DNA of 32,175 nucleotides, taken from the NCBI GenBank assembly GCA_017399555.1, contig JAFQBW010000016.1, positions 1 to 32,175 on the forward strand. Direction: 5' to 3'. The notes beneath the pieces are model-generated. The model did no database searches, had not been told where the DNA came from, and was given only the letters and a program-made list of their open reading frames with translations. Shown here one piece after another: positions 1,579 to 32,078 of the stretch (its first letter is position 1; every line of letters begins with the position of its first letter). The position numbers and the translations under genes were made by a program. Source of the DNA: Methanocorpusculum sp. (GTDB taxonomy: Archaea > Halobacteriota > Methanomicrobia > Methanomicrobiales > Methanocorpusculaceae).

Positions 1579-1593
1579 TCAGTATGTCGGAAA
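1579..1593 (-). promoter_or_regulatory. GACATACTG promoter-like motif upstream of recD2
   Basis: On the minus strand this reads TTTCCGACATACTGA, ending 39 nt before the TTG start of recD2. It lies between the terminator of the preceding gene (1615-1650) and recD2, where a promoter is needed. It belongs to the nine-copy family described in the findings. No conserved -35 box is evident. Confidence 0.6.
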
Positions 1594-1614
1594 GAGGGAA
1601 ACAGGTGACAGGCA

Positions 1615-1650
1615 TAAAAAGAGGACCCCATGCATTGCTGCATGAGGTCC
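1615..1650 (-). terminator. Intrinsic terminator of the HTH_16 gene
   Basis: Arms at 1623-1634 and 1639-1650 pair over 12 positions with one internal mismatch and a 4-nt loop. On the minus strand they are followed by a U-rich tract (complement of 1616-1620). It separates the HTH_16 gene from recD2. Confidence 0.8.
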
Positions 1651-1662
1651 AGTAATGTTTCT

Positions 1663-1911
1663 TTATTCTGATTTGGTGTCCGGCTCCTGGAGTGGGAACT
1701 GGGGGATAGCTTCCAGCAGTTTCAGGACAAGGTGCTGTCGTAAATCTTCATCGATTTCCTTTCGGATTGTCCCGTCCGGCTGCTTCTTCTCCACGGTTGC
1801 CTGCTCGTCAATATAGTCCTTAAAATGCTCAACAGCCTGTTCGATTGCCCACTTTTCACCGGCGACGGCGGCTTTTATTACTTCGTAGTCCAGCATCTCG
1901 TTATCTGCCAT
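1663..1911 (-). CDS. HTH_16 (Tn916-type) helix-turn-helix protein
   Basis: This 82-residue protein matches the general pattern of the short helix-turn-helix proteins (HTH_16 type) found in Tn916-like conjugative elements: an early acidic stretch, a helix like AVEHFKDYIDEQA, then a hydrophilic segment and DEDLRQHLVLKLLEAIPQF near the end. Such proteins resemble region 1/2 fragments of sigma factors and are thought to act in element regulation. The ATG at 1911 is used because AAGGAGG lies 9 nt upstream; the longer frame to 1938 lacks a ribosome site. It is followed by its own terminator. Family assignment rests on remembered pattern only. Confidence 0.65.
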   Translation of the reverse strand: MADNEMLDYEVIKAAVAGEKWAIEQAVEHFKDYIDEQATVEKKQPDGTIRKEIDEDLRQHLVLKLLEAIPQFPLQEPDTKSE

Positions 1912-1951
1912 GGTCTGCTTCCTCCTTCTTAAAATCAATGGTTATGCAGAA

Positions 1952-2374
1952 TTAAAAATGACATATAATCGATTCCTCCAGTTGTTTAAGGGAATCGGCG
2001 CACAAAGATTTGATTACATAAGGCAAGTGGTCTTTTCGGTTTGGGGATTGTCTGTATGTATCGAAATTTCGATAATACTCCTCTGCATACTCCATTACAT
2101 CTTTGGCGAACAAAGCCTTCGCCTCTCGTATGTTAGAGCCGTGGGAAACAATGTCCAGAGTATCTGCAGATAGTGTTATGCTACCATCTGCTTCTTTGAA
2201 TTGCGTCGCGGCAAAACAGACATGAGAAAGAAGCTGGAAAACCACATTTGTAGAAGACAGAAAGAAGTGCTGCCCGTTCAGTTCAAATAGCGTAGGCCGT
2301 TGGATATGACAATCGCAAAGAGTATCATCAAAATTCAAACTGGAGATACATTCATGTTCCGGAACCATTTGCAT
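1952..2374 (-). CDS. Uncharacterised protein, antitoxin-like C-terminal pattern
   Basis: About 140 residues, soluble, no signal peptide. The second half (EAKALFAKDVMEYAEEYY, then SPNRKDHLPYV) resembles the C-terminal half of HicB-like or related antitoxin proteins in Firmicutes, where a strand-rich domain is followed by helices with this PNRK-HLP pattern. I cannot name the family with certainty. No partner toxin gene is visible next to it. The start is ambiguous among three codons between 2368 and 2377; the ATG at 2374 has AGGA 7 nt upstream. A sigma-A promoter lies directly upstream, and the gene is 40 bp from the HTH_16 gene, so the two may be cotranscribed. Confidence 0.6.
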   Translation of the reverse strand: MQMVPEHECISSLNFDDTLCDCHIQRPTLFELNGQHFFLSSTNVVFQLLSHVCFAATQFKEADGSITLSADTLDIVSHGSNIREAKALFAKDVMEYAEEYYRNFDTYRQSPNRKDHLPYVIKSLCADSLKQLEESIICHF

Positions 2375-2391
2375 CACCTCATCCTATACCA

Positions 2392-2818: not shown

Positions 2819-3073
2819 ATGACAAAAGAGGAATTTGTTAAGCAAATAGGAATAACGATGAGCAACATGCCAGAAGAAATGGCCAAGGAAGTAGTGGATG
2901 TTATTTCCCATGTAGAGGATTTTGCTGACATAAGTAAATGCGTTCATCTTACAGGAGAAGAACTGGAGAAGCGGGCGAGAGAGAGCATAGCAGAAGGATA
3001 CTATTGGAGAGGCACTGTCTACAGTATGTTTGCTGTCATGAAGGGGAGATATGTGGACGATACTATCAGCTGA
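2819..3073 (+). CDS. Small acidic protein of unknown function divergent from XRE repressor
   Basis: This 84-residue protein begins MTKEEFVKQIG and is predicted helical, without signal peptide or membrane segment. I do not recognise the family. The ATG at 2819 is preferred because GAGAGGAG ends 8 nt upstream; the upstream ATG at 2801 is part of that site. It is driven by the perfect TATAAT promoter at 2746-2773 and is divergent from an XRE repressor, an arrangement common for toxin-antitoxin or repressor/target pairs. Its 3' end overlaps the convergent hydrolase gene by 8 nt. Confidence 0.6.
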   Translation: MTKEEFVKQIGITMSNMPEEMAKEVVDVISHVEDFADISKCVHLTGEELEKRARESIAEGYYWRGTVYSMFAVMKGRYVDDTIS

Positions 3074-4937
3074 TATACTGCAGCGGGTCAGTTGGGACGC
3101 CGTTATACTGCACCTCGAAATGCAGATGAGCACCAGAGGAGTAACCGGTAGAGCCGACTTCCCCGATGGCGTCCCCGGCAGATACCGTCTGGCCGATGGA
3201 GCAATCGATGGCCTGTAGATGCGCGTAGATGGTTTTCGTTGTGTCGCTGTGCTGAATGATGACGTAGTTTCCATACCCGCCGCCGCAGTTGCAGCAGTTG
3301 CTGGAGGACTTCCCGTAGTTGTGGGAGCAGGTGTTGGAAATGAAGACGACCTCGCCATCAAGTGCCGCAGAGACCTCTGTGCCGTAAGTCGCTCCCACAT
3401 TGCCGCCGAGGTCAATGCCTGTATGTAGCTTCCATGTGTTCCAGAGTGGGTGCGTCCGATACCCGAAGCGTGAGCCGTTGATGATGTTCCTCTTTGTGGC
3501 TGCGGTAAGCCCGGGCACAGGGGAGGACAGGGAACCAATGTCGGCGTAATAGGCGCCGGAATAGCTGCTGGAAAATACGCCGAGAGGGTCAATCTGCGTG
3601 CAGCCCACAGGACGGATAATTTTCACGATTTCACCGGCCCGGTCACTGCTTAACAGGATATCGCTTATCCTTGTATTTTGGCCTGGGTCAGAGGAGGGAG
3701 AAGACGCCTCGATGACAGTGATGGTGTTGCTGTTTCTGGCGCCGATGAAGATGGCCACATGGTCGTAACCCATGGAAGTGCGGCCGTAGAGGTCTTCATT
3801 CACCTGATACCGGAAGGAGCCGCCGTATTGGTCGGTGATGTCCCTGTAATAGTTGAAGAAAATGAGGTCGCCCGGCTCCAGCGCCTCAAAGACACTTTGG
3901 TCGACCGTCTGCATGTAGGATACGATGCTGGTCTCTGGCAGAGTTCCGTCAAAGGAACCGGTGAAGTAGAGGTCGTTTAGAATGCCGTTAGCCGCTTTGT
4001 ATGAGGCAAAATCCGCCTGCGGAGTCGCATTTTCCTCTGCGCCATCCCACAGGATGACATTCTCCGTCTGGCTGTCTGCCCATGCCGCGATACCGTTGCA
4101 GGCAGTGCCGAAATTCGTGAAGTCAATGCCCACCTGATACCAGCACCAGGAGGCAAGGGCGGAACAATCCGTATAGTAGTCGATATAGCGCCGCGCCTGG
4201 CTGTAGACGCCTTTCAGTCCCAGTCTCGTGTAGGCCAGTTCCGCCACCTCGCGCTGCAAGTCCGGCTCCTGTCCCGTAGAAGGCAGGGAAAAGGATGTGT
4301 TATACATATACCCCGTCACAACCAGGTCATCCGCAGAATGGTATTCGGCATTGGTATTGTCGATATTGGTGATAGACCCATTTCCCGACTGGATAATGCA
4401 TTTGACATGGGAGATGCTTCCGTTATCGGACAGGATACTCACAAGGTCGTGTCGTTTCAGCTCCGCCAGCGGCTCACCTGTCATGGAGTCCGAGGCGAAA
4501 ACTTTGGCGTAAGGCACCATGACGGCGCGGGAGGTTGCCGGCGTCTGAGGGGTATAGGAATGGTAGCTCCCGCCCATGGCCACCGGTGATTCCGTCCCAG
4601 TAACGATGGTAAGAGAGCGGCTTCCTGCGCTGTCCCCGATGCAGCTGACAGAGGCTGTATAGGAACCGAGGGGCAGGTTCCGGACAGGTAGTGGGATTTG
4701 CACGCTGCCTTCTTCAGCTTCTGCCGTTTTCATGTAGACGGCGGCGCCATCCATATAGAGGGTAAGAGAAACGGTATTATCGGTTTCTCCGGATAAGGTC
4801 ACTTCGATAATGCCGTCAGCATAAGAAACATCTGTAATCGTTCCACCAGCTGCATGCGCAGGGACTGATTGGCAGAGCAGAGACAGTATGAGAAGAAAAG
4901 AAAAGATGCGGTATGGGCATCGGGCGGATTTAAGCAT
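3066..4937 (-). CDS. Secreted bifunctional peptidoglycan hydrolase, NlpC/P60 plus M23
   Basis: This 623-residue protein has a signal peptide (residues 1-29, ending AHA), an Ig-like segment (about 31-115), an SH3-like segment (about 137-215), an NlpC/P60-like domain (about 225-440) and a C-terminal M23 metallopeptidase (about 485-623). In the NlpC part, Cys258 in DCSAL and His393 in DHVAIFIG are the expected catalytic residues. In the M23 part the zinc ligands are His505 and Asp509 (HTGIDLG) and the final His of HLHFEV (606), with His573 likely catalytic. The ATG at 4937 has AAGGAGG 7 nt upstream. It probably cuts peptide bridges of the cell wall, as hydrolases of conjugative systems do to let a channel through; that role is inferred. 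The motif copy at 4964-4976 lies upstream. Confidence 0.9.
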   Translation of the reverse strand: MLKSARCPYRIFSFLLILSLLCQSVPAHAAGGTITDVSYADGIIEVTLSGETDNTVSLTLYMDGAAVYMKTAEAEEGSVQIPLPVRNLPLGSYTASVSCIGDSAGSRSLTIVTGTESPVAMGGSYHSYTPQTPATSRAVMVPYAKVFASDSMTGEPLAELKRHDLVSILSDNGSISHVKCIIQSGNGSITNIDNTNAEYHSADDLVVTGYMYNTSFSLPSTGQEPDLQREVAELAYTRLGLKGVYSQARRYIDYYTDCSALASWCWYQVGIDFTNFGTACNGIAAWADSQTENVILWDGAEENATPQADFASYKAANGILNDLYFTGSFDGTLPETSIVSYMQTVDQSVFEALEPGDLIFFNYYRDITDQYGGSFRYQVNEDLYGRTSMGYDHVAIFIGARNSNTITVIEASSPSSDPGQNTRISDILLSSDRAGEIVKIIRPVGCTQIDPLGVFSSSYSGAYYADIGSLSSPVPGLTAATKRNIINGSRFGYRTHPLWNTWKLHTGIDLGGNVGATYGTEVSAALDGEVVFISNTCSHNYGKSSSNCCNCGGGYGNYVIIQHSDTTKTIYAHLQAIDCSIGQTVSAGDAIGEVGSTGYSSGAHLHFEVQYNGVPTDPLQYIS

Positions 4938-4963: not shown

Positions 4964-4976
4964 TCAGTATGGAAGA
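4964..4976 (-). promoter_or_regulatory. CATACTG motif upstream of the hydrolase gene
   Basis: On the minus strand this reads TCTTCCATACTGA, 26 nt before the hydrolase ATG. It is the variant with TC instead of GA before CATACTG, shared with the copy at 32066-32078. It lies back to back with the copy at 4981-4993. Confidence 0.55.
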
Positions 4977-4980
4977 AACG

Positions 4981-4993
4981 CTCTGACATACTG
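4981..4993 (+). promoter_or_regulatory. GACATACTG motif upstream of the lipoprotein gene
   Basis: This reads CTCTGACATACTG on the plus strand, 21 nt before the ATG at 5015. It is the only copy that directs rightward transcription apart from the one before the sigma factor gene. It is separated by 4 nt from the opposite copy at 4964-4976. Confidence 0.55.
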
Positions 4994-5014: not shown

Positions 5015-5593
5015 ATGAAGCGCTTGACATTTGTCCTGCTCTGTGTTATGTGGCTGTTTTGTGCCGGCTGCTCCGGACAGGAGGAATTGCCAACGGAGAT
5101 TGCAGGGGTCGGGGACGTGCTGGTGAAAGAGAATGGAGGCCTGCTCCCGCCAAATCCACTAACAGAGAGCGACAGGATTCTATCGGCAAATGCAGATGTA
5201 GGAACCATCACTTCGGAAATGGTCTGCAAATGGTTTGAAGATGTGGTTACAGAGGCATTTGCAGAACAACCGGCGGAGGAGGGCTTTTCCATCTGCACTG
5301 CGGCGCTGTCAGATGGCGGCATCATGGAGGTCATGGATTACTACGGAAGCTATTACAGCACCACATTCCGTTATCCCGTGCAGACTGGCGCTGATAGTAT
5401 CGCCGGTGCAGCATCCGAAAATGTGGAGCATTATCTCGACAGAAAGCTGACGGATGCGGAGCGGGAGGAACTTCGCACGGCGGTACAATCTGTCGTGATG
5501 GGGGCAGGGATATTGCAGATTCAAGCACTGTCTGAATATGTGCGGGTATCCGTATTTTCAGAGGATGGCAGCATCCACATCCAATGCTCCTAA
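5015..5593 (+). CDS. Lipoprotein of unknown function
   Basis: This 192-residue protein starts with a lipoprotein signal peptide; the lipobox FCAGC puts the lipidated Cys at residue 19. The remainder is acidic and shows no domain I recognise. The ATG at 5015 has AAGGAGG 7 nt upstream; a GTG at 5009 is too close to that site. It is divergent from the cell-wall hydrolase, and both have their own copy of the GACATACTG motif, so they are probably expressed together at the cell surface. A bidirectional terminator follows and overlaps the end of the CHC2 gene. Confidence 0.75.
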   Translation: MKRLTFVLLCVMWLFCAGCSGQEELPTEIAGVGDVLVKENGGLLPPNPLTESDRILSANADVGTITSEMVCKWFEDVVTEAFAEQPAEEGFSICTAALSDGGIMEVMDYYGSYYSTTFRYPVQTGADSIAGAASENVEHYLDRKLTDAEREELRTAVQSVVMGAGILQIQALSEYVRVSVFSEDGSIHIQCS

Positions 5594-5598: not shown

Positions 5599-5633
5599 AG
5601 CGAGACGCCAGATTAAAATGGCGCCTCGCTTTT
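5599..5633. terminator. Shared terminator between converging lipoprotein and CHC2 genes
   Basis: Arms at 5599-5610 and 5619-5630 pair over 12 positions with one mismatch and an 8-nt loop, followed by TTT on the plus strand. The second arm encodes the last residues of the CHC2 protein on the opposite strand. Confidence 0.7.
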
Positions 5634-6494
5634 GCTGTTCCATATACTGTCTGCCGCTGCGGTAAGGATTCCGGCATTCGCAGGGCGGGGAATCGTGGCA
5701 TTTGTTTCTTCGTCATTGCTGTGAAACCCTGCTGCGCGACCAGCGCCATGGGTCAGGGAAATTTCCCGCACTTCCTTGATTATGCCGGATATGACCGAGG
5801 CCATCTCCATATCAGAGCACATTGATTTTACTTTCCGAATGGCTCCTTGGTATTCTTCAGGCAGCAGGGACGGGTTCCGGAGGATATCCAGCACGGACAG
5901 GTATTTGTCAATGGTTCGCTGGCAGAAATCGTCTACCAGTTCCCGGTAGAGTTCTTTGTCTTCTTTATAGAGTCTATAAAGTGGGTTGTTATCTGCTTTC
6001 TTTTGAATGGAATAGCAGAGGAAATTATCTTCTTTATCCAGCTCCTCCTCCACGAGGTATCCATCCCGTCGCAGGGCTATGGCTTCTTCGTAGTCATATG
6101 TAACACCTGCATGCACATAGACGGGCCTGTTCTGGAGGCCAATAAGGTCCTGGCTCTTTTTGCTGATGAAGTGGAGGGCGTCATAGTGTTGTATTTCCTC
6201 GTCCTCCGGCAGCTCATAGCGTTCGGCTCCGCCACAGATGTCCGCGACAATGCGTAGCGCCTGAGGGAATCCGACATTCATCACAGCCTGTACGAAGCGG
6301 AACACATCCCCCTTGGCATGGCAGGAATAACAGTAGAATTCCTTGTCGTTGATAAAGCAGCTGCCCAGATTTTTGTCATTATGGCAGGGGCAGTAGATAA
6401 GAGATTTGCTTCCACGGCGGTAGATGTCCACACCCAGTTCCTCAGCTACGACGAGCAGGTCTGCGTTTTGCCGAATTGCCTCTTTGTCCAGCAT
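5613..6494 (-). CDS. Stand-alone CHC2 zinc-finger (primase-type) protein
   Basis: This 293-residue protein carries a DnaG-type CHC2 zinc finger near its N-terminus: Cys35, His38, Cys55 and Cys58 in the CPCH ... CYSC pattern, followed by KGDVFRFVQ. DnaG primases continue with a TOPRIM polymerase domain; none is visible here, and the rest (about 100-293) is charged and helical. It may bind single-stranded DNA or act with a separate primase in the element's replication, which is inference. The ATG at 6494 has GGGAGGG 7 nt upstream. A GACATACTG motif lies 38 nt upstream of the start and the gene stands alone. Confidence 0.8.
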   Translation of the reverse strand: MLDKEAIRQNADLLVVAEELGVDIYRRGSKSLIYCPCHNDKNLGSCFINDKEFYCYSCHAKGDVFRFVQAVMNVGFPQALRIVADICGGAERYELPEDEEIQHYDALHFISKKSQDLIGLQNRPVYVHAGVTYDYEEAIALRRDGYLVEEELDKEDNFLCYSIQKKADNNPLYRLYKEDKELYRELVDDFCQRTIDKYLSVLDILRNPSLLPEEYQGAIRKVKSMCSDMEMASVISGIIKEVREISLTHGAGRAAGFHSNDEETNATIPRPANAGILTAAADSIWNSKSEAPF

Positions 6495-6532: not shown

Positions 6533-6547
6533 TCAGTATGTCGGAAA
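6533..6547 (-). promoter_or_regulatory. GACATACTG motif upstream of the CHC2 gene
   Basis: This reads TTTCCGACATACTGA on the minus strand, 38 nt before the ATG at 6494, identical over all 15 bases to the copy before recD2. The divergent small-protein operon uses a sigma-A promoter only 17 bp away. Confidence 0.6.
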
Positions 6548-7553: not shown

Positions 7554-7654
7554 CCTATTGTCAAACGCCTGTTTTACGAACCCTCTATGTAGAACCCAGG
7601 ACTTTTTTGGCAGAACACGTCGAATTTTGAGTTATTAGAGAGTTTGACAATAGG
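7554..7654. repeat. 13-bp inverted repeat spanning the sigma factor promoter
   Basis: CCTATTGTCAAAC (7554-7566) and GTTTGACAATAGG (7642-7654) are perfect inverted copies 75 bp apart. The right copy contains the -35 box TTGACA of the sigma factor promoter, and the left copy has the same box facing the other way. It could be an operator or a long-range hairpin. Between 7491 and 7786 there is otherwise no gene. Confidence 0.55.
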
Positions 7655-7672
7655 ACTTTTGTGTTATATGAT
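7644..7672 (+). promoter_or_regulatory. Sigma-A promoter of the group-3 sigma factor gene
   Basis: A perfect TTGACA (7644-7649), a 17-nt spacer and TATGAT (7667-7672). It leaves a leader of about 108 nt before the ATG at 7787. Confidence 0.75.
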
Positions 7673-7732: not shown

Positions 7733-7746
7733 TTTCATACATACTG
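7733..7746 (+). promoter_or_regulatory. Motif variant upstream of the sigma factor gene
   Basis: TTTCATACATACTG differs from TTTCCGACATACTG at 2 of 14 positions and ends 40 nt before the ATG of the sigma factor. The distance matches the other copies, which suggests that the sigma factor activates its own gene. Confidence 0.5.
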
Positions 7747-7786: not shown

Positions 7787-8674
7787 ATGACGGTCAACTA
7801 CGCCGAATTTGAAAACATGAAAATGCCCGAACTGATTGCACGTTATAAGCTCGGGTCAGAAGCGGAACGTGCCCTGATTGTCACGAAGGTCATAATGGAC
7901 AACGACAAGTTGATAACACACTTGTTGAAGAAACACTTCCCTTCGTACATCAAAAGCCATTATGACGATATGTGCCAGGAGGGACGTATCGCTATTTCGC
8001 AGCATTTTGCGGATTTTCAGCCGGAGAAGGGGAAGTTTTCAACCTATATCGGCACGTACATTCTTGAAGCATTCAAATGGTACATCTGCAGTCTGCACGG
8101 GATTTCTTCCCATTACTTCACCCGGCTCAAGCAGCTGAACCATGCCATTGCAAAATTGAAAGCTGACGGACATACGGAAATCACCGCAGACCTGATTGCA
8201 GAGGAGATGGGCGTTGGTCTGGATGCGGTCTTGGCAGTCATGGCCATCCGCGACCGTATCAACCACATTTCCATCGAAGGGGACGAAAAGGAGAAGACGC
8301 TGTTCTCCGGCGAAATTCTCGGTCCCGAGGAGCAGTTCGAACGAATGGAAGAAATCGAGGCGCTTCGCTCTGCCGTACGCCGCCTTCCGCCGCAAGAGAG
8401 AAAAGTTATTATCGCATCTTATCTGAATGAGGATGAACGGGAGCTTCCCTTGCGGGATGTGGGGCGCCAGCTGGAGATGGACTCCAACACAGTGCGGCGG
8501 CTCAAGAACAGGGCGCTTCGGCAGCTCAAACGGGATGTGGACCTGACAGGTCACTTTGGCGGTGCAAGGAACTGTGAAGTCAGCGATTTCGCTGATGCGT
8601 TGACCATTGATTTCGTTATCTCCAAATCCACAGTAGATGAGAATCTGGAAATCGCATTCGACATTGACATATAA
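7787..8674 (+). CDS. Group-3 sigma-70 family sigma factor
   Basis: This 295-residue protein has the layout of FliA/SigF/SigB-type alternative sigma factors: region 2 (residues 38-102, with DDMCQEGRIAISQHFADFQPEKGKF... and a YI-helix), region 3 (108-165) and region 4 (192-252, with LPPQERKVIIASYL and a helix-turn-helix LRDVGRQLEMDSNTVRRLKNRAL). It lacks the long non-conserved region 1 of housekeeping sigma factors. The start at 7787 has GGGAGGAG 6 nt upstream; the frame is open to 7661 but lacks a ribosome site there. It has a sigma-A promoter and a motif variant before it. I infer that it reads the GACATACTG motif found before eight other genes. A 43-residue tail after region 4 has no domain I recognise. 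Confidence 0.88.
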   Translation: MTVNYAEFENMKMPELIARYKLGSEAERALIVTKVIMDNDKLITHLLKKHFPSYIKSHYDDMCQEGRIAISQHFADFQPEKGKFSTYIGTYILEAFKWYICSLHGISSHYFTRLKQLNHAIAKLKADGHTEITADLIAEEMGVGLDAVLAVMAIRDRINHISIEGDEKEKTLFSGEILGPEEQFERMEEIEALRSAVRRLPPQERKVIIASYLNEDERELPLRDVGRQLEMDSNTVRRLKNRALRQLKRDVDLTGHFGGARNCEVSDFADALTIDFVISKSTVDENLEIAFDIDI

Positions 8675-9853: not shown

Positions 9854-10668
9854 CGCTGGCTTCCTTTCTTAATGATGATGACGGTGATGACAGCGGCTAC
9901 AGCAAGGGAACCCGTGATGACGGCAGCAGTCACAATACGGTCAGAGATAGTTGTATCAGCTTGTGGCGCGGTAAGACCGCCGACACCGCCGTTGGTGATT
10001 TCAGTGCTGATAACAGAAGGCTCCTGCTGTTCGTTGCCATGGGGATAAGGCAGAATAGACGGCGGGACTGAGGGCGCCTCTGTTTCTGGCGGCAGTTCAT
10101 CCGACATGCCGGGCGCAATAGGTTCAGCAGGTACATCGGGCGTCTCCGGGTGTGTGTCGTCCGGCGTGTCCGGGTCCGGTGTAGTGGCAGGTTGTGCTGG
10201 AATTGCTGTGGGCTGCTCTGTTGTTGTTTCAGACGGCGGCGATGGGTGTGCAGGGGATGAAGAAACATTATCCTCTGCAGCGGGAGGGAGTGTCGATTCG
10301 TCCGGCTGTGTGTAGTTACCCATGTTCTCGGCTTTGATGAAGGTGATGCGCAGGGTGACACTGTTTCCTTTGGGGGCTACTAAAATTGTCTGGGGGCCGG
10401 CGCCGCTGATGTTCATGGACTGGTCGTTCAGATAGACACCGGCCACAGCATAGCCGTCATTCGGGACAGCAACAATCTCGACTTTTGTGTCATCCTCCAC
10501 GTATATTACGTTGCCCTCCATTTTGACAGCGGAAAGCACGTTGATGCTGCCGCCGTTGTTGTAGGTCACTGTGATGCGTCCGCCGGCGGCGAAAGCTGTA
10601 GTAGTGAAACAGAGCAGGAGCATCAGCGTGGTTATTAGAGAGAAACAGCCTCTTTTCATAGGCCTCAC
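9850..10668 (-). CDS. Secreted proline/threonine-rich protein with C-terminal membrane anchor
   Basis: This 272-residue protein has a signal peptide (residues 1-27), a strand-rich domain (about 28-110, with NDGYAVAGVYLN and a repeated VTYNN pattern), a long Pro/Thr/Glu-rich stalk (about 115-215) and a C-terminal membrane segment (about 244-265) ending KKGSQR. No sortase motif is seen, so it is held by the membrane. It looks like a surface protein with a globular head on a stalk. It overlaps rnhA (ATGA) upstream and the lipoprotein gene downstream by 4 nt each. Confidence 0.75.
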   Translation of the reverse strand: MRPMKRGCFSLITTLMLLLCFTTTAFAAGGRITVTYNNGGSINVLSAVKMEGNVIYVEDDTKVEIVAVPNDGYAVAGVYLNDQSMNISGAGPQTILVAPKGNSVTLRITFIKAENMGNYTQPDESTLPPAAEDNVSSSPAHPSPPSETTTEQPTAIPAQPATTPDPDTPDDTHPETPDVPAEPIAPGMSDELPPETEAPSVPPSILPYPHGNEQQEPSVISTEITNGGVGGLTAPQADTTISDRIVTAAVITGSLAVAAVITVIIIKKGSQR

Positions 10669-11267
10669 CCTGCAGATGCCGTGGCGTTGCCTTTCGGATG
10701 GTCCAGTTTCCGTTCGATGAGTTTAGCGATTTCTACCTTGGCCATGGCGTCGCATCGCTCGTTGAACGGGTCTCCGCTATGACCGCGCACCCAGTGGAAA
10801 TGCAGCTTATGAAAGGCGGCGAGGTTATCAAGCTCTGACCACAGCTCCAGATTTTTGTTGCGGTTCCAGTTTTCGGTCATGGTCTTTACGACGTACTGGG
10901 AGTCGGAGTAGATATGTACTTCATGGGGCGTCATTAGCAGATGCAGACCCTGGATGACAGCGGTCAATTCCATGCGATTGTTGGTGGTCTTCTCCTCTCC
11001 GCCGGCCAGCTCCAGCCGGGAGCCGTCTTCAAAGGTGAGGATGGCGCTCCAGCCGCCATAGCCGGGATTGCCGGAGCAGGCGCCATCAGCATAGAGTGTG
11101 ACGATGCCCGGACATTCAGCTGCTTTGCGGGCCGAGCTGGGCGTATCCCGTTTGGGTTCAGTTCGGCGTTTTCCGATAGTCACACGAATTCTATTTTCAC
11201 AGCCGGGCGATTTGACAGAGACCTGTCCGGCCGCGGCCAGGGGAATTGTAATCTTAGCGCAAGTCAT
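10665..11267 (-). CDS. rnhA: Ribonuclease HI with N-terminal extension
   Basis: RNase HI cuts the RNA strand of RNA-DNA hybrids. In this 200-residue protein the catalytic residues are Asp61 (YADGACSGNPG), Glu100 (NNRMELTA), Asp122 (YSDSQYV) and Asp173 (NERCDAMA), with His163 in the RGHSGDPFNE loop. The RNase domain starts near residue 55, so about 54 residues of basic, non-conserved sequence precede it. It is the first gene of a coupled operon whose other members are surface proteins, which is unusual. The GACATACTG motif lies 32 nt upstream. An element-linked role in replication or removal of hybrids is inference. Confidence 0.92.
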   Translation of the reverse strand: MTCAKITIPLAAAGQVSVKSPGCENRIRVTIGKRRTEPKRDTPSSARKAAECPGIVTLYADGACSGNPGYGGWSAILTFEDGSRLELAGGEEKTTNNRMELTAVIQGLHLLMTPHEVHIYSDSQYVVKTMTENWNRNKNLELWSELDNLAAFHKLHFHWVRGHSGDPFNERCDAMAKVEIAKLIERKLDHPKGNATASAG

Positions 11268-11299: not shown

Positions 11300-11313
11300 T
11301 CAGTATGTCAGAA
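11300..11313 (-). promoter_or_regulatory. GACATACTG motif upstream of rnhA
   Basis: This reads TTCTGACATACTGA on the minus strand, 32 nt before the rnhA ATG. The divergent small-protein cluster has its own sigma-A promoter just 31 bp away. Confidence 0.6.
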
Positions 11314-19000: not shown

Positions 19001-21107
19001 TGCCGTAGGGGATATTGTAGATGAACATCTGGCCAAACTCGCTGACCGTCAGGGGATTACTGGGGTCGGCAGGGGTGCCGGAGCCGTCGTTCATCACCTG
19101 ATAGACATTCATCAGTGTGTTCATGGAGTGGCTGGTATCCCGCCGTACCTTCACATAGGGGCAGTTTTCATAGCCCTCGAAGGCTGCCGCTTCCTCTGCG
19201 GTCATGGACACCATGATATCCTCATCCACGATGCGCATGGTCCAGAGGGAATCGGTGGAATACTCCTTGCCGCTGACAGCCCCGCCGGCGACGGTGCCTT
19301 TGCCTTCCTCTTGACTGAAGATATCGTCGCTCCCGATTTCCTTGATGATTTGCAGGGAGCCGGTGAAGACGGTGTTGATGAATACATCCTCATCGCCGCT
19401 GTTGATGGGTGTGTCCTCCGTGGCCAGCACTTCCTGTCCGGTCATGTTATAGGTCTGTCCGTCCAGCGTGATGGTGTACTCGAAGGGGGTGAAGTCGGAG
19501 TAGGGGTCTTCACGGCTTGCGCTGGCGTAGTAGGTCACCTCATGGGTATAGGTCCGAGGGTCAAGATGATGGCCCAGAGGGGCGCCGGTCTCCTCCACGG
19601 TAATGGTGGCGGTACCGGAATAAATCATCTCGCTGACGAACTCAATTTCTGTGGCCTCCTCGCCCTCGCCCTCTGTGTAGGTGGAGGTGACTTCTTCATA
19701 ATGCACGATGCTCTTGGGGTCCTGCTCACCGTCCCAGGGATAGACGACGGCAGAGGCACCATGTCCATACAGGTCGGCGGAAGTGCTGATGCTGCCGCTG
19801 TCGCCCATATCGGTAGCCCAGGAGACTGTGAAGACGGCGTTCAGCTCGGAGCCGCCAGCCGGGGTGCAGGTGTCACTGTCAAACCAGCCATATTCATCGT
19901 ACTTATGGATGTCAAACTGAAAATAGGGGAAGACAGGGACGTCAGAATCAGCTTCGGTATCTGCACGGACGGCCAAATAGACACCGTTGAAGGTGGGCGC
20001 TTTATAGGCGGTAAAGAAGCACTGCTTCCGGGCGGGCGCCTGTGCGAAGATGGCCCAGTCCTCATTGTCATAGGCGGAGCTGTCCTCGTTGGGGATGGAG
20101 TCTGTTTTCAGGAACATGATGGCGTAATCGGGGGTGGCGCCATCCTCGCTCATTTCCACTTTGAGGTCGAAACCGCTTTCTGTCCGGGTGATACTGAACA
20201 GGCCATCGGCTGAGACCGCGGTATCGCCGATAGAAAAGCTCTGGACATTCCCGTCAATGGCAACATACTTAATGTTCTTGTTGAAGCTTTCAATCTGCTT
20301 GTCAGAGACGGACAGAGACTTCTCTACGACCTCCTCGCCGTTGCTGTGCAGATTCAACGGCTTACTGATAGCCGCTTCAAGGGTGGTCTGCGTACGGGCA
20401 ATGGAGCCGGTATCCGTTGTGGCAATAAAGGCCGGAACGCCGGCGTGGTAGAGGTTATATACTTCCTCCAGAATCCATGCGTAGCTGTTTTTGACCTTCT
20501 GTGCCTCTGCCTCGGTCAAATCCTGCTCCACCTTATACCACATGCCCTTGGAGTTCGGGTTGCAGACATGCCAGATGAAATTCTGTACGGCATAGACGTC
20601 GTAGGTATTATAAGTGCCGGTCTTATCAAATTTGATGTGCAGCACGGACATCATCTCGATGATAGTCTGGAACGTGCTGGTGTCCAGTGTGTTCAGCACA
20701 TCGGCGTCCAGAACAGTCTCCCAGTCGAAGTCATCCATTTCCTCGCTGGTCACGCTGTCCTGTCCGGCGTTTTTCAGCATGGCCTGGCTGCGTGCAATCC
20801 CGATAAGGGACTCCACATTTTCGCCGGTGGCAAGGGAGACGCTGTATTTGCTGTAGTCTGTGGCACTGCCCTTACCGGGGTCAACACAGTACATGATGCG
20901 TTTCGAGGCTACGTCTCGCGGCACCTCGAACCAACCGCTGTGACCGTTGTTGTAGGTCTCCCAGAACTTGATGCCGGCGTATTCTACCGCATTGGTGCTG
21001 CGGCCTTCGGTCAGGGCCGGTTCCAAGGCGAATACGGAAGTCGGCATCAGGGACAGGATAACTACGACCGCCAGCAACAGAGCGGTGAGTTTCTTGCATT
21101 GTCTCAT
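13047..21107 (-). CDS. Giant thioester/SpaA-type adhesin with sortase-like anchor
   Basis: This 2686-residue protein starts with a signal peptide (residues 1-28) and a thioester domain (about 40-190): Cys74 in MYCVDPG and Gln175 in VQNFIWHV fit the Cys-Gln pair that forms an internal thioester for covalent binding to host surfaces. A long series of strand-rich SpaA/Cna-B-like segments follows (for example LPYGSYQLEELVVPEHY and LPIGDYYVKELQTLPGYSL). Four similar SpaA domains of 89-103 residues form the C-terminus (13146-14279). The end is IPRTG, then a membrane segment and RKSKRR, an LPXTG-like sortase signal. The start at 21107 has AGGAGG 6 nt upstream; the ATG two codons earlier abuts that site. 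The GACATACTG motif lies 45 nt upstream. No sortase gene is in the window. Confidence 0.9.
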   Translation of the reverse strand: MRQCKKLTALLLAVVVILSLMPTSVFALEPALTEGRSTNAVEYAGIKFWETYNNGHSGWFEVPRDVASKRIMYCVDPGKGSATDYSKYSVSLATGENVESLIGIARSQAMLKNAGQDSVTSEEMDDFDWETVLDADVLNTLDTSTFQTIIEMMSVLHIKFDKTGTYNTYDVYAVQNFIWHVCNPNSKGMWYKVEQDLTEAEAQKVKNSYAWILEEVYNLYHAGVPAFIATTDTGSIARTQTTLEAAISKPLNLHSNGEEVVEKSLSVSDKQIESFNKNIKYVAIDGNVQSFSIGDTAVSADGLFSITRTESGFDLKVEMSEDGATPDYAIMFLKTDSIPNEDSSAYDNEDWAIFAQAPARKQCFFTAYKAPTFNGVYLAVRADTEADSDVPVFPYFQFDIHKYDEYGWFDSDTCTPAGGSELNAVFTVSWATDMGDSGSISTSADLYGHGASAVVYPWDGEQDPKSIVHYEEVTSTYTEGEGEEATEIEFVSEMIYSGTATITVEETGAPLGHHLDPRTYTHEVTYYASASREDPYSDFTPFEYTITLDGQTYNMTGQEVLATEDTPINSGDEDVFINTVFTGSLQIIKEIGSDDIFSQEEGKGTVAGGAVSGKEYSTDSLWTMRIVDEDIMVSMTAEEAAAFEGYENCPYVKVRRDTSHSMNTLMNVYQVMNDGSGTPADPSNPLTVSEFGQMFIYNIPYGTYLISEISADADRYVLESFYVYIPEDNYVHSTDVINTDKRNIVEVVKVDEETGKTIPSAKTAFRIRYLGSPEYADPTQTPGYGRYLPNASNINASVTSAEDYIFYTDPMGKITIDYELPYGSYQLEELVVPEHYFIGAYDTDGEAETVDGNKTYIQKVAVYDENGNHIDYTKDEDIVYNYFPFEVTEQADHMDGEDYEPYYLTVTMPNSQVKGKVEISKLGERLVGFREVEQDGFTVFEPVFESFPLEGATFDIFAAEDVLLEDGEDPPKAYDKLTGEEIRLITDVLTHAQFPDMEIIQSGTHEGSGAEVIHTYPRDISESNVNTVEYLTPIQKGTTYSLNFSNHVDGLTYDYEVTFGFEYSAGGWNYTDIHVRRTITADDYLPYIDDTMPVIKNGGEVVTCDSSAVYANGNKLEVKAETVNEYDMSAIRVVPQSFTRSRVLTPEIADSTNPDLINNLPEIPAGYSLHSVSDTRFLIVNDQFLNDIRVAVVIPPEDGGEENPDAGAGDNPDDTPEEPVIEWQPRDTADPALYLMPTYKQEAVFNLPELPAGATFLYATQTRVFVQVGEDIKVLYTDDEGNITCQNVDGTGLEQFVPDNIPEGYEYVEATGIILAERLDEESGDYLYKCYVYDPDLDTYRWVDSDSEGNIYKVRVQELDVMLTQHNESNDGWYFEMDGILLSNVATNEDTATAVITNPFNVEPVIADSVGCDIATVPMADGGNQTTIVIKHPSAPVYFDMIDGTKVEMVYLGGFSKTTLQVPATAELPVIYYRNVEIDYFDWANGGLTPDHNHNEVVFDEYNYVRVTRYEASDVIPLTYYQIEVVSSAAEEREAFLIDYDGAYESVSLVVPDAVTGVQRGNLQFRAIYKTMRYPLSSLVERITSGPDGVATSSLLPLGDYIIRESSVVDGFVATNQAFPFSLTYENQYTPLIWRSAEIGNGAMSVQLDLYKEFQKALGSDEYEPRAGAIFGVYAYNPIAANYTAADGATVTTASIPADTLVATLTVDEFGKAVETIKLPIGDYYVKELQTLPGYSLNDTRFIFRVDEETKADGLKFTYENLGVSGKVSHTGYKMAEVEIVTLTQIPPLSMTVNGVKYDTTEALDAETLGSGVLVQNTVDADRSTFVITVVMGQPATITFANGSSMELTVEQNTYTAIFTDGDEAVSLDTGVGKNISTSDNEDGSTSVIYNPYVAYTGYVAETTSMYREITTQARAEDGTTAMFLADRASGSKKVVITYDKTKYSYYHELPVKQVEDDENPGQMLDVPYIPDGAIIFGTDADPQAIISNTSHVVPEGWLIDLDKGEIIIDLSVATVRDVRFGAKTAEAGTLSFTGASWTAPNDTNMSLSYSDGVKNVCTDGNTVLADGTQIDWVTTATTDTSASHNWVAKQLSLSAVGGSAEVDVALAHDHTYGTLNVLQGTVTSAWVNGESKDVSTLSNLPVLPSYEVILLMSDSTIYRVDLSNNGCLTMSAEGIISGAIGDSNKPMLKVNGSADNFLNVDYQVITQAMPMDETSYNDIRQYNTQSVTLARSDSWVKQLQVKINASSDINAGIPDGGIEGEGSGTNPIYNDVRPYILKTDVTGAKLLAGAKIEIYDVDGNVYASGYSGSDGRFYFDLPSPGKFTFREIYAPSGYLVNEEVFEFIVHPDGSITGDNTIKDERIPDRPDNPGPGPGPSTPKVTLNKLDSVTMTGIPGVELEVWNEDKTELIASGKTSVQGKFTFDRPKNGVYWFRESATVEPYELNENWYTFTVAGGRVTGDDTILNDRKPVYINKTNVTNAEGVPGAYIEVLDENHNVIASGYSNEAGLFEFERPNPGKFYFHEVVAPKGFILNEEFFSFTVNEDLSITGDLTITNVPNTIIIEKVESGTGRPLEGATIELWDEEGKLVEVGVTGPDGLVYFAAPKLGTFIYRESISPEGYILDEGTHVITLHADGTITGELRLTNTPYIPRTGLTDWTPVLLCAAGVMALALAVTLICVRKSKRR
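13146..14279 (-). repeat. Four tandem SpaA domains at the adhesin C-terminus
   Basis: Units of 103, 91, 89 and 95 codons (13971-14279, 13698-13970, 13431-13697 and 13146-13430 in protein order) share a core: K near the start, IPG/VPG + E/I-L/V strand, ASGY...G.F.F..P..G.F.FRE..AP.GY.LNEE, then TG and a threonine-rich end. A Gly-Pro linker (PDNPGPGPGPSTP) separates the first from the second. The lysine and glutamate positions fit isopeptide-forming domains. Confidence 0.7.
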
Positions 21108-21152: not shown

Positions 21153-21167
21153 AAGTATGTCAGAAGC
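21153..21167 (-). promoter_or_regulatory. GACATACTT motif upstream of the adhesin gene
   Basis: This reads GCTTCTGACATACTT on the minus strand, 45 nt before the adhesin ATG and only 5 nt after the preceding gene's stop. The first 15 bases are the same as in the copy at 21934-21948. Confidence 0.55.
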
Positions 21168-21172: not shown

Positions 21173-21889
21173 CTATAACTGTGTGGCGTAAAAGCGGCAT
21201 GTAATAATGCCCGAATCAGCCTCAATCACCAAATCTATGGAGGTACAGCCTTTGGCCAGCAGATAATCCACGGTGGTCAGAAGCTTATACTTCACATCAC
21301 AGCCGGAGAGGTCGTCTGCAGCAGTAAATGTGTCTGTGTATTGGAGGTTATCCGCCGTTTCCAAACCGGAACGGATGACCATTCCGCATTGGGATGCGTA
21401 CAGCTCAATGCCCTTCTCCGCGATATCGATGTCAAAGGCAGCAGGGTAGAAGCCGGTATAGAGAGCGGAGGTATTCTCCGTATTCAAAGGCGCATCCACT
21501 GTGACCATCATGTGGTAGCGGAAGTCGTCAGCTATGATATGAACCAAGGTCATACCGCCGCTCTTGCCGCAAATTATTCCGTCAGAGGACACTGCGGCAA
21601 TGAGCGGGTCGTCAGAGGTGTAGGACACGGATTCATAGTCAAAGGGGATTTCAATTTGATAGTTCTCCTCGGCGATAAGTGTGAGTCTTTTCGCTATCGA
21701 CGCGTCTGCCTGTAGCCGCTTCATATAGCTGCTGTCAGAAATGGCGGCGGCATCAGCAGATGCGGTCGGGCTTGTTTCTTCGGACAGAGGCTGCAGTTCA
21801 GCGTCGTGGTTGACGATGATTGGTTCTCCGCAAGCTGTCATTGACAGGCAAAGCAGAGCGGAGAGAGTGAAAATCAGAATGTGCTTCAT
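21173..21889 (-). CDS. Lipoprotein with Ig-like (Big_2) segment
   Basis: This 238-residue protein has a lipoprotein signal (LSMTAC; lipidated Cys20). Residues about 70-130 (VSYTSDDPLIAAVSSDGIICGKSGGMTLVHIIADD) fit a bacterial Big_2 Ig-like domain. The C-terminal 100 residues are strand-rich and unknown to me. AAGGAGG lies 8 nt before the ATG at 21889. It lies 65 nt upstream of the adhesin gene on the same strand; both have their own copy of the motif. A shared surface role is likely. Confidence 0.75.
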   Translation of the reverse strand: MKHILIFTLSALLCLSMTACGEPIIVNHDAELQPLSEETSPTASADAAAISDSSYMKRLQADASIAKRLTLIAEENYQIEIPFDYESVSYTSDDPLIAAVSSDGIICGKSGGMTLVHIIADDFRYHMMVTVDAPLNTENTSALYTGFYPAAFDIDIAEKGIELYASQCGMVIRSGLETADNLQYTDTFTAADDLSGCDVKYKLLTTVDYLLAKGCTSIDLVIEADSGIITCRFYATQL

Positions 21890-21933: not shown

Positions 21934-21948
21934 AAGTATGTCAGAAGC
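21934..21948 (-). promoter_or_regulatory. GACATACTT motif upstream of the Ig-like lipoprotein
   Basis: This reads GCTTCTGACATACTT on the minus strand, 44 nt before the ATG at 21889 and directly downstream of the terminator at 21949-21983. The U-tract of that terminator abuts it. Confidence 0.6.
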
Positions 21949-29080: not shown

Positions 29081-29151
29081 TTAGAAAAATTTGATTAGCA
29101 TGAATAAAAACCAGGCGTTGAATTGTGTTATAGGTGAAAGGAGATGGATAT

Positions 29152-29628
29152 GTGAATTCGTTTGGTACCACGGAGTCTATATCCCGGGCAGTAGAGAAAT
29201 ACAGTTCCATGCTGCTGCATCTCGCCTTGACGCGACTGTCTTCGCCGGCGGATGCCGAGGATACGGTGCAGGAGGTATTTATCCGCCTCATGACAAAAGC
29301 ACCGACTTTTAAGGATGAAGAACATGAGAAGGCGTGGCTCATCCGCACGACGCTGAACTATGCCATTAACCTTCGTAAGTCGTCAGCCTATAAAAGTATT
29401 CCATTGGATGAAACTGTCCCTGTCATGCAGCCCGAGCATTATAATCTCCTTTCAGCCGTCCGGTCATTGCCGGACAAATACAGCGCTGTGATTCACCTGT
29501 ATTACTATGAAGGCTATAGCATCAAGGAAATTTCAAAGCTGTTATGTCTGCCTGTGGCGACTGTAGGCACCCGCTTGACGCGAGGGCGGGAGAAGCTTCG
29601 ACAACTGCTAAAGGAGGATTTCGAGTGA
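29152..29628 (+). CDS. ECF sigma factor, distinct type
   Basis: This 158-residue protein is an ECF sigma factor: region 2 (YSSMLLHLALTRLSSPADAEDTVQEVFIRLMTK and EKAWLIRTTLNYAINLRKS) and region 4 (LPDKYSAVIHLYYYEGYSIKEISKLLCLPVATVGTRLTRGREKL). It is more like typical SigM/SigV-type factors than the other three ECF factors here. GTG start at 29152, with AAAGGAG 10 nt upstream; the GTG at 29134 precedes that site. It overlaps its partner gene by 4 nt (GTGA). Confidence 0.88.
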   Translation: MNSFGTTESISRAVEKYSSMLLHLALTRLSSPADAEDTVQEVFIRLMTKAPTFKDEEHEKAWLIRTTLNYAINLRKSSAYKSIPLDETVPVMQPEHYNLLSAVRSLPDKYSAVIHLYYYEGYSIKEISKLLCLPVATVGTRLTRGREKLRQLLKEDFE

Positions 29629-30407
29629 ACCGAGATAAATATCGTGAGGCCTTTAATGCCGTCCCGTTCAGTGAGGACTTCCAGCAGCGCACTGTGGAGC
29701 GGCTGACCAGGAACCAGGGAGACGGAAAGGACGAATTTATGAGAGCAACCCGCCGTTTCAAAGCACTACCCATTGTAGCCGCTCTTGCTGCGATACTGAC
29801 TATTTCCGCAGCCGCCGTTGTACTCTGGCTGACGCCAAGCGAGACAGCGCAGATGCTGGATGACCCTCTGCTGGCCGAAGCATTTGAGAGCGAAGACGCC
29901 ATCATTTTGGACCAAACGACAGAGAGTGGTGGATATACATTCCGTCTGGCCGGTGTTGTCAGTGGCGAAGCCATTTCCGACCATACTGAGGACCTGGACG
30001 AGGAAAAGACCTATGTTGTAGCATCCCTCTCCCACACCGATGGGACTCCCATTGAGGAAGCCGGCTTTGATTTCGTATTTACACCCCTTGTTGCCGGCTA
30101 TCAGCCCCGCAGCGTCAATACATGGACCCTTGGAGGAGGCGCGAATGCCTTTGTCCATGAAGGAGTAGCCTATTACCTCTATGAGTTTGAGACCATTGAG
30201 AAGTTCGCGGACAGCACGGTCTATTTTGCAATGTACGAAGGCGGTGTGCCCGGACCCGATACTTTTTCTATGGCTGAGGATGGCAGCATCTCTTTTGTGA
30301 GCGATTATGATGGGCCTCATGCGCTGTTCACAATTCCTCTGGACGAGAGCAAGGCGGACCCTGAGGCTGTTGCACAATTCTTTGAGGAAACCGGATTCAA
30401 ACCCTGA
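29625..30407 (+). CDS. Membrane anti-sigma factor partner of the fourth ECF sigma
   Basis: This 260-residue protein begins MNRDKYREAFNAVPFSEDFQQRTVERL, typical of anti-sigma N-termini, has a membrane segment (about 48-69) and an outer domain of about 190 residues. Start GTG at 29625 overlapping the sigma stop. The outer domain differs from the other three anti-sigma proteins. The family (DUF4179-like) is likely but not certain. Confidence 0.75.
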   Translation: MNRDKYREAFNAVPFSEDFQQRTVERLTRNQGDGKDEFMRATRRFKALPIVAALAAILTISAAAVVLWLTPSETAQMLDDPLLAEAFESEDAIILDQTTESGGYTFRLAGVVSGEAISDHTEDLDEEKTYVVASLSHTDGTPIEEAGFDFVFTPLVAGYQPRSVNTWTLGGGANAFVHEGVAYYLYEFETIEKFADSTVYFAMYEGGVPGPDTFSMAEDGSISFVSDYDGPHALFTIPLDESKADPEAVAQFFEETGFKP

Positions 30408-30421
30408 TTGCCGATTGCGTG

Positions 30422-30454
30422 AAAAAGACCCGTCTGGCACAAGCCAGACGGGTC
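30422..30454 (-). terminator. Terminator of the SLH-CAP gene
   Basis: Perfect 12-bp arms (30427-30438 and 30443-30454) with a 4-nt loop; on the minus strand followed by TTTTT. It lies 18 nt after the stop of the SLH-CAP gene and 15 nt after that of the converging anti-sigma gene. Confidence 0.85.
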
Positions 30455-30471
30455 AATTCATGAAGGCTCGT

Positions 30472-31998
30472 TCACCGGAACTTCTCCGCGCCATATCCCG
30501 AGAACAGCTGGACCACGTAAATCCGATACGAGTTGCCGGAAACTTGTTCAAGGTGTGCGCCCACTACGCCGCTCAGATGGAAGGAATCCACGATATTACC
30601 GCGATGTCCCGCAGAGTTCATCCAGCCGCTTACGATGCCGCTGGCAATGCTTTCGGCTGGCTCGTCTGTGTTAAACGTGTAGGTGGAGCCATTCTCCGAA
30701 TGGAAGCCGCCAGCCAGCCCTACATCTTTCAGCACCGTGGAAAACATGGTTCCGTCCGGGCGGGTATGAGAGCCGTTGGTAGCAAACTCTGCGGCGCGGA
30801 TGTCCGCAGCTGTCTGTGCTGCTGCAATGTATTCGAGGGCAGGTAAGCCTGCAGAGATGCGCTCCGCATCCACAAGACGGATAATCTCCGACTGTACGGC
30901 AGAGACAAAATCGGCATCGATATCCTGACCGGCGGCAGAGGAGCCGGTGTTGACATGAACGGGAATAGAAATAACGGTGTCGTCATCAAGACATCTTACT
31001 TCGATAACAGCAGAGCCGGAGCCGGCAACTGCAATGCGGCCTTCCGCAGAAACTAAGACAACACCGCTGTCAGAGGAGTGGAGAGAGTAGTGGTTAGGGA
31101 GGAACATGGGATATATGGAGCCATCAGGCGCCGTCTTCCACGACATATCGCCACCGAGGTCAGCAGGGAAGATGCTGATAACTGTTGCAGAAGCAGCAAC
31201 GGTTCCGCCGCCTTCCGTCTGGATGGCGACCTCTGTGACATTATCGGCGGATGTGCGGAAAACCAACGCCTGCGGATTGGAATGCCCGTCAATCGAAACA
31301 GTAAAGGAGGGCGCAGCAGATGGAGTGTCCTGTTCCGTTTTCGGGTCATCCTGCGGCTGAAATACAGGCTGCATCCGCTCGTGCAGCCGGGTGAGCACCA
31401 CCGCGGTCTCCGCCCTGGAAATGGAGTCCTTCGGCTTAAACTCCTTTGCGTTGTTGCCGCTCATGAGTCCGTGGTCCCGCATAGCTTGTACGCCATCCTC
31501 TGCCCACGAACTGATTTCCCCGGAATCGGCATACGTAGAGATGTCCTCTGCCTGTGTCTCCGGTTCCATGTCATTCAGCACCAGATAATGATGCAGCATC
31601 ACCGCGACCTGCTCCCGCGTGATTTCTCTCTTTGGAGAAAAAGTGGTGGCAGTAGTGCCGCCGGTGATTTTATTTTCATAGGCCCAACTGATATACGGAG
31701 CAGACCAGCCATCGGGGTCAATATCGGTAAAGGGGCTGTGATTCTCCGCGTTTTCATCCACGCCGCTCATCCGCCCAAGAGCCGTTACAAACATCTCTCG
31801 TGTGATAGCGTCCCCTGGGCCAAAGCGTCCATCCTCATAGCCGCCGAAAATACCGTGCTCGGTGACATGCTCCACCGCGGAGGCATACCAGGCACCTGCC
31901 GGAATGTCGGTATACTCTGCCGCTAAAGCGGCGCCTGTAAGACTGGCCATCACCGCCAGCATAAGAGCAGCGGTTGCGAATTTCTTGATAAATTTCAT
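30472..31998 (-). CDS. Surface protein with three SLH domains and a CAP domain
   Basis: This 508-residue protein has a signal peptide (1-27), three S-layer homology domains (about 29-75, 88-135 and 152-205) that attach proteins to cell-wall polymers, a linker, a Big_2-like part (about 290-345) and a C-terminal CAP/SCP domain (about 370-505) with GSHTRPDGT, SENG and GWMNSAGHRGNIVD. Such CAP proteins are secreted and may act as proteases or ligands. The ATG at 31998 has GAGAGG 9 nt upstream; an ATG at 32007 abuts it. The CATACTG motif copy lies 67 nt upstream. Confidence 0.9.
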   Translation of the reverse strand: MKFIKKFATAALMLAVMASLTGAALAAEYTDIPAGAWYASAVEHVTEHGIFGGYEDGRFGPGDAITREMFVTALGRMSGVDENAENHSPFTDIDPDGWSAPYISWAYENKITGGTTATTFSPKREITREQVAVMLHHYLVLNDMEPETQAEDISTYADSGEISSWAEDGVQAMRDHGLMSGNNAKEFKPKDSISRAETAVVLTRLHERMQPVFQPQDDPKTEQDTPSAAPSFTVSIDGHSNPQALVFRTSADNVTEVAIQTEGGGTVAASATVISIFPADLGGDMSWKTAPDGSIYPMFLPNHYSLHSSDSGVVLVSAEGRIAVAGSGSAVIEVRCLDDDTVISIPVHVNTGSSAAGQDIDADFVSAVQSEIIRLVDAERISAGLPALEYIAAAQTAADIRAAEFATNGSHTRPDGTMFSTVLKDVGLAGGFHSENGSTYTFNTDEPAESIASGIVSGWMNSAGHRGNIVDSFHLSGVVGAHLEQVSGNSYRIYVVQLFSGYGAEKFR

Positions 31999-32065
31999 GT
32001 CGGTCATCCTCTCAAATGTGTGATAGAACAGATTTTTGTTGTGTTTTTGAGTTTGTTCTTCACTT

Positions 32066-32078
32066 TCAGTATGGAAGA
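32066..32078 (-). promoter_or_regulatory. CATACTG motif upstream of the SLH-CAP gene
   Basis: On the minus strand this reads TCTTCCATACTGA, identical to the copy before the hydrolase gene. It is the farthest from its gene (67 nt). A weak sigma-A reading (TTGACT-N17-TTAAGT) lies further upstream, so this gene may have two promoters. I see no gene in 32079-32175. Confidence 0.5.

Follow-up and report, generated by a model that had tools for sequence, protein, structure and literature searches.

The question raised by contig JAFQBW010000016.1 of assembly GCA_017399555.1, a stretch of 32,175 nucleotides (nt) filed under Methanocorpusculum sp. and called here as a whole the window, is what the short promoter-like motif repeated before its genes represents and which protein reads it. 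The original prediction wrote the motif as TTCYGACATACTG, took it to define a candidate regulon, and assigned a sigma factor encoded in the window to the SigF/SigG class. According to our analysis, the motif, refined to TTC-N3-CATACT-S, is genuine and has the distribution expected of a promoter used throughout a replicon; it is very likely a promoter, and the sigma factor of the window probably reads it, as the private promoter of its replicon, across a large bacterial plasmid of the pRUMAL01 kind.

All nine copies claimed in the window were present, displaced by 1-2 nt at most, and each of them lies upstream of, and faces, a called start codon at a distance of 22-69 nt (21-67 nt in the original prediction). 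On the reverse strand, TTCCGACATACTG was found at 1580..1592, 41 nt before a recD2-like helicase gene truncated by the contig end (1..1539), and again at 6534..6546, 40 nt before the gene of a CHC2 zinc-finger (primase-like) protein (5613..6494); TTCTGACATACTG at 11301..11313, 34 nt before the RNase HI gene (10665..11267); TTCTGACATACTT at 21153..21165, 46 nt before the gene of a giant SpaA-repeat adhesin of 2686 residues (13047..21107), and at 21934..21946, 45 nt before that of a lipoprotein recognized by eye and lacking a Pfam match at 0.001 (21173..21889); and GTCTTCCATACTG at 32067..32079, 69 nt before the gene of an SLH-CAP surface protein (30472..31998), all of these genes being on the reverse strand as well. 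The copies TTCTTCCATACTG (4965..4977, reverse strand) and CTCTGACATACTG (4981..4993, forward strand) are the halves of a divergent pair with a 3-nt gap, and the starts that they face, 28 and 22 nt downstream, are those of an M23 peptidase that also matches CHAP weakly (3066..4937, reverse strand) and of another lipoprotein recognized by eye (5015..5593, forward strand). The variant TTCATACATACTG (7734..7746, forward strand) precedes by 41 nt the start of the sigma gene itself (7787..8674, forward strand). As had been claimed, a terminator-like hairpin on the same strand lies immediately upstream of two copies, those at 1580 and 21934 (1623-1650 and 21954-21984, respectively). All these genes are candidate members of the regulon.

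With respect to TTCYGACATACTG, six copies had 0-1 mismatches, those at 4965 and 7734 had 2, and that at 32067 had 3. A window scan with up to 3 mismatches gave 28 matches, versus a mean of 13.7 and a maximum of 22 in 100 shuffles, and the whole assembly at up to 1 mismatch also gave 28, versus 5 for the reversed pattern. The motif as such was thereby retained, its GA was not fixed, and TTC-N3-CATACT-S proved the better form. The looser pattern NTC-N3-CATACT fitted all nine copies and had one extra match in the window, at position 906, within recD2.

The motif reaches far beyond the window. We analyzed ten contigs of the assembly (C1, C9, which is the window, C18, C25, C32, C36, C44, C51, C56 and C65; 218,235 bases), whose genes were called by a simple codon model, and found 43 NTC-N3-CATACT sites in these 218 kb versus 6.7 expected with equal base frequencies. 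Rather than being equally frequent away from starts, 40 of the 43 sites lay 20-84 nt before a start, 39 outside called genes and the fortieth at C25:8291 (51 nt, according to the first gene caller); the three remaining ones were that at 906 in the window, C1:9861 (679 nt) and C18:21000 (126 nt). Without any motif being assumed, CATACT was the most enriched hexamer in the upstream zone, defined as 12-90 nt before starts and covering 4.4% of positions (44 of 137 occurrences, log10 p -25.3), and TTC-N3-CATACT was the top gapped pattern (29 of 36 in the zone, log10 p -32.6) among the 39 with at least 6 zone matches. The sequence is strict, since the 18 one-base variants of the core after TTC-N3 amounted together to 36 occurrences, 3 of them in the zone, the spacing N3 had 36 copies versus 1-7 at each of twelve alternatives, and shuffled cores gave a mean of 1.9 and a maximum of 9. 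The logo of the 40 sites, whose invariant TC and core positions follow from the search pattern itself, read wTC-T-G/T-M-CATACT-S, with a weak T-rich signal upstream. On other contigs of the bin, seven matches at up to 1 mismatch had by eye no clear downstream start, one of them (C10) being doubtful, and TTCTGMCATACTS was present in 13 copies in this assembly (control, 0) versus at most 2 in any other of 33 genomes of the family. This promoter-like placement before genes, on many contigs, agrees with the candidate regulon that had been proposed.

The genes carrying the motif include those of DnaE, RecD2, RecJ, an SSB-like protein, an SMC/AAA-like ATPase, the CHC2 protein and RNase HI; the motif also precedes genes of actin-like, CpaB/RcpC-like and HD-domain proteins, the M23 peptidase, the SpaA-repeat adhesin and the SLH-CAP protein, and several others without a Pfam match. 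In long leaders, a second block resembling GATGAC-N-GGAG was observed by eye downstream of the promoter and ahead of the real ribosome site (C65 17057, 18523, 43193, 45332 and 48012; likewise C44 769 and 16336, and C51 6429). The sequence TTGATAA..GGAG occurs 19 times on pRUMAL01 and is possibly a leader element in common with that of the window.

Regarding its origin, the window is apparently bacterial plasmid DNA wrongly binned with a methanogen. The assembly contains McrA, which makes it a methanogen bin, and all its 17 Sigma70_r2 matches, which represent a kind of protein absent from archaea, are on the motif contigs or on contig C42; the window would therefore be misbinned, and the archaeon of the bin was rejected as host. 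A viral origin was also rejected, as the sigma factor had no relative in IMG/VR, and the pattern joining motif and ribosome-binding site (RBS) found 29 IMG/VR contigs with a single copy each, which look like chance. The ten motif contigs would form one plasmid: by translation, the recD2 gene truncated at the left end of the window overlaps and extends onto C56, and C32 apparently contains the continuation of a gene that ends C65. The start of the SLH-CAP gene (30472-32079) recurs nearly identically, with an identical promoter, at the end of C51 (1-391), and this repeat may be the reason why the assembly broke. The bin, with a listed contamination of 0.98%, appears to hold more than 218 kb of bacterial plasmid DNA on the ten contigs and C42. 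On C1 (4369-8790), open reading frames (ORFs) resembling a Tn7-like transposition module were seen by eye, with a weak integrase-core match.

The best relative in the plasmid collection was the megaplasmid pRUMAL01 of Ruminococcus albus 7 (NC_014824.1), with 62% identity in aligned pieces of a serine-rich protein, whose farther matches carry a DUF87 annotation, and 40% identity in DnaE. Both elements have the order dnaE, SSB, further genes, serine-rich ATPase, CpaB-like and AAA ATPase, interrupted by other genes on C18, and this synteny of the serine-rich ATPase with dnaE and SSB, typical of a pRUMAL01-type megaplasmid, is found on C18, outside the window; they also have an adjoining RecD2 pair and CHC2, RecJ, SMC-like and actin-like relatives in common. 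In the excerpts of PMC4081043 that concern it, pRUMAL01 is mentioned for dockerin genes. Like the element of the window, pRUMAL01 has replicon-wide promoters of the layout TTC-N3-(-10), with TTTTC-N3-TATAAT occurring 50 times versus 4 for the reversed pattern, and on pRUMAL02 of the same strain once versus once. In contrast to the element of the window, its -10 box is TATAAT, its logo has a T-rich block 17 bp upstream of it, i.e. at -35 spacing, and its sigma factor (330 residues, the only one in a gene table that may be incomplete), a relative of that of the window, is just 21% identical. Among 30 reciprocal-best pairs, the relative carries the pRUMAL01 motif for 8 of 13 motif genes versus 1 of 17 others (Fisher p 0.0016).

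A second relative was found in Anaerostipes hominis BG01, where the element contig (NZ_NQOG01000007.1, 152.7 kb) has the motif CATACTA-N3-ATGAA. It resembles the element of the window in joining a CATACT core, a sigma relative (E 2e-27) and syntenic genes on one contig, and differs from it in a TT signal one base closer to the core, a conserved downstream ATGAA block and a sigma gene that lacks the motif. CATACTA-N3-AT[GA] occurs 41 times on this contig, versus a shuffled mean of 1.1 and a maximum of 7. When the A. hominis genome was scanned for TCATACTANNNATGAA, allowing up to 1 mismatch, 29 of the 37 matches were on the element contig, 2 on contig C41 and 6 elsewhere (reversed control, 6), and all 17 exact matches were on the element contig or C41. 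For the recD2-like gene of the window, the best relatives in both pRUMAL01 and A. hominis carry the motifs of those replicons. A TATGAGAGAA-like sequence was also noticed by eye about 20-30 nt upstream of several CATACTA promoters of the A. hominis contig (loci L120-L127).

These relatives bear on two other readings of the motif. It might be an extended -10 promoter (TGN-CATACT, cf. TGN-TATAAT) of the main sigma factor of the host, as suggested by a G at the TG position in 22 of 40 sites, by CTG-N-CATACT, of which 18 of 21 copies are in the upstream zone, and by the canonical TATAAT of pRUMAL01. Nevertheless, TTC-N3-CATACT has more zone matches than CTG-N-CATACT (29 versus 18), SigA-like sites (at least 9 of 12) are found less often upstream of motif genes (5 of 40) than of other leader genes (29 of 86, p 0.017), and a host main sigma would hardly favor one replicon as strongly as seen for the promoter of pRUMAL01 over pRUMAL02 and for the exact copies in A. 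hominis, so we consider this reading improbable. The other, that instead of a sigma -10 box the motif is a site bound by an activator or repressor, or a promoter used by a single-subunit RNA polymerase of the phage type, would fit its nine fixed bases, its strictness and its small -35 signal. However, the corresponding box of pRUMAL01 is TATAAT, the canonical -10, accompanied at -35 spacing by a T-rich block, and two sites of the window directly follow terminator-like hairpins, and we regard it as very improbable indeed. With CATACT taken as the -10 element of a sigma-dependent promoter, TTC, ending 3 nt upstream, would be an extension replacing most of the usual -35. The absence of a conserved -35 noted in the original prediction holds for the element of the window, apart from the weak T-rich stretch, and does not extend to pRUMAL01. 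The divergent pairs, in which motif copies are separated by 3 nt in the window (4965/4981), by 17 nt on C44 (4334/4364) and by 26 nt on C25 (8290/8329), indeed leave little space for upstream elements.

The sigma factor of the window, a protein of 295 residues that has a C-terminal tail in addition to regions 2 and 4, is a member of the sigma-70 family, with 28.0 bits for Pfam region 2 (cut-off 24), 37.3 for region 4 (cut-off 24.1) and 82.4 for TIGR02937 (cut-off 42.9). The CATACT core resembles the CATA-type -10 boxes of the SigF/SigG/SigB kind, whose sigma factors are likewise of this family with regions 2 and 4. Nevertheless, the assignment to the SigF/SigG class finds no support, since the protein scored 35.7 bits versus a SigF cut-off of 321.45 and 33.7 bits versus a SigG cut-off of 372, and no matching -35 was seen at the motif sites. 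In the PDB, the protein matched chains of SigA (E 1.5e-8), and SigA-type chains rank first in a fold search with its AlphaFold model, with template modeling (TM) scores below 0.5 for the query; the model is of moderate quality (predicted local distance difference test (pLDDT) 71, predicted TM score 0.49). Regarding membership of the extracytoplasmic function (ECF) type, about 105 residues, partly helical in the model (mean pLDDT 71), separate regions 2 and 4 without a Sigma70_r3 match, and its A. hominis relative does match Sigma70_r3 (26.0 bits, cut-off 25.3).

The relatives of this sigma factor are 27% (A. hominis), 23% (Ruminiclostridium), 23% (an uncultured Clostridia bin) and 21% (pRUMAL01) identical to it. 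In two near-identical Ruminiclostridium bins with identical sigma proteins, the sigma relative and the serine-rich ATPase are on the same contigs, and in the Clostridia bin they are on separate ones. In a tree, the five element sigmas fell outside the group of 31 other sigma rows (95/94), on long branches, with the window and A. hominis joined at 88/52; the tree label needed three changes because two rows labeled as host were copies of element proteins. No close relative besides itself was found among 33 genomes of the family and 232 of the order, nor in the genome-contig collection. A tblastn search with the sigma factor gave 12 plasmid records and 1 phage record, and of two inspected by eye one looked RpoD-like and one FliA/WhiG-like. 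An RpoD-like ORF is present in record OY725880.1, which is catalogued as a plasmid of Subdoligranulum and may be chromosomal.

On a further reading, the motif is the promoter of the element but a different sigma factor of the element reads it. The 16 Sigma70_r2 matches besides the sigma factor of the window lend some weight to this; the two of them that were tested (22246-22812 and 28319-29080) score as ECF-type sigmas. However, ECF promoters usually have a conserved AAC-type -35, and no conserved -35 is present at the motif sites; moreover, the single sigma in the gene table of pRUMAL01 is the relative of that of the window, and yet this plasmid has a replicon-wide promoter of like layout. 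We therefore find this reading unlikely, although somewhat less so than the two preceding ones. The density of sigma-region-2 matches is unusual for a mobile element, and four of the 16 are located at 22246-29382 of the window, beside ORFs that by eye resemble anti-sigma membrane proteins.

To our knowledge, SigN is the main example of a plasmid sigma factor whose regulon is confined to the plasmid, and the mode of action proposed here is, by analogy, that of SigN. As described in excerpts of PMC6751061 and PMC10601692, SigN (ZpdN) is a sigma factor that the Bacillus subtilis plasmid pBS32 encodes and whose regulon is for the most part restricted to that plasmid, and the SigN gene has SigA-type promoters plus a self-dependent one. 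In agreement with this arrangement, the sigma gene of the window is preceded by a near-perfect host SigA-type promoter (TTGACA-N17-TATGAT, 11 of 12; 7644..7672, forward strand), the strongest SigA-like site among the five motif genes with one, as well as by the motif copy at 7734, whereas the A. hominis sigma gene has no motif copy. The host main sigma would first transcribe the sigma gene from the SigA-type promoter; the plasmid sigma, with the host core RNA polymerase, would then read the motif and activate the regulon, with the genes of DnaE, RecD2, RecJ, the SSB-like protein, the SMC/AAA-like ATPase, the CHC2 protein, RNase H, the actin-like and CpaB/RcpC-like proteins, the cell-wall hydrolase and the surface adhesins; and it may feed back positively on its own gene through the copy at 7734. 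The two promoters before the sigma gene suggest bootstrapping and positive feedback, as in SigN. That a sigma factor is encoded in the window, as originally predicted, stands, and it is the likely reader; from the sequence we infer both its pairing with the motif and the transcription starts. Confinement of the motif to the replicon is likewise SigN-like in pRUMAL01 and A. hominis, as judged by motif counts alone. Genes for PHP-domain, DHH-family, RNase H, actin-like and gyrase-A proteins are present on pBS32 as well. The likeness is one of mode rather than of descent, as no convincing homology of the sigma factor to SigN was detected (BLASTP E 0.99; hhalign probability 4.4% over 61 columns), SigN has 199 residues versus 295-330 for the element sigmas, and its promoters, among those listed in the paper's table, mostly have TTTACGTTT and GATA-type boxes as opposed to TTC-N3-CATACT here. 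No description of this sigma family or its promoters was found in the literature searched, which excluded most subscription papers and all preprints.

Several observations weigh against the explanation proposed here. The ten contigs were selected for containing it, C42, with two motif-RBS matches, was left out, and the gene calls are our own. The element sigmas share just 21-28% identity with that of the window, and the 16 other sigma-region-2 matches mean that another sigma could read the motif. The CATACT form is not the promoter of pRUMAL01, where TTC-N3-CATACT occurs 5 times versus 2 reversed, and among 29 A. hominis pairs the relative carries the motif for 9 of 15 motif genes versus 5 of 14 others, which is not significant (p 0.27). 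In the class of A. hominis, 325 of 391 genomes matched the sigma profile at E 1e-20, and none of these matches was confirmed as a further sigma of the element type; three inspected next-best matches (G577, G595 and G627) look chromosomal by eye. Finally, no CATACTA is present in the 130 nt that precede the sigma gene of A. hominis, and no copy of the respective replicon motif was seen by eye before those of pRUMAL01 and Ruminiclostridium; the feedback is therefore not conserved and is the weakest step of the mechanism.

Beyond the window, pRUMAL01 and the A. hominis element each have their own replicon-wide motif, and by eye CGTAATCATAATA stands before several genes of the Ruminiclostridium relatives and TTATGTTA before several of Alkaliphilus pB6464. 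We lean towards the view that these replicons form a family of Bacillota megaplasmids, each with its own sigma factor and promoter alphabet, which would diverge together by replicon and keep the plasmid genes for replication, repair and the cell surface insulated from both the host and competing plasmids. The alphabets would be TTC-N3-CATACT, CATACTA-N3-ATGAA and TTTTC-N3-TATAAT and perhaps also CATAATA in Ruminiclostridium and TTATGTTA in Alkaliphilus. If this is true, R. albus 7 and A. hominis BG01 would be testable cases, the family would offer natural, mutually distinct sigma-promoter pairs, and the promoters would provide a simple route to finding such plasmids and joining their contigs in metagenomes. 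Much of the family backbone, including the replication polymerase and the actin-like gene, appears to be under a replicon-specific sigma factor whose promoter varies among relatives.

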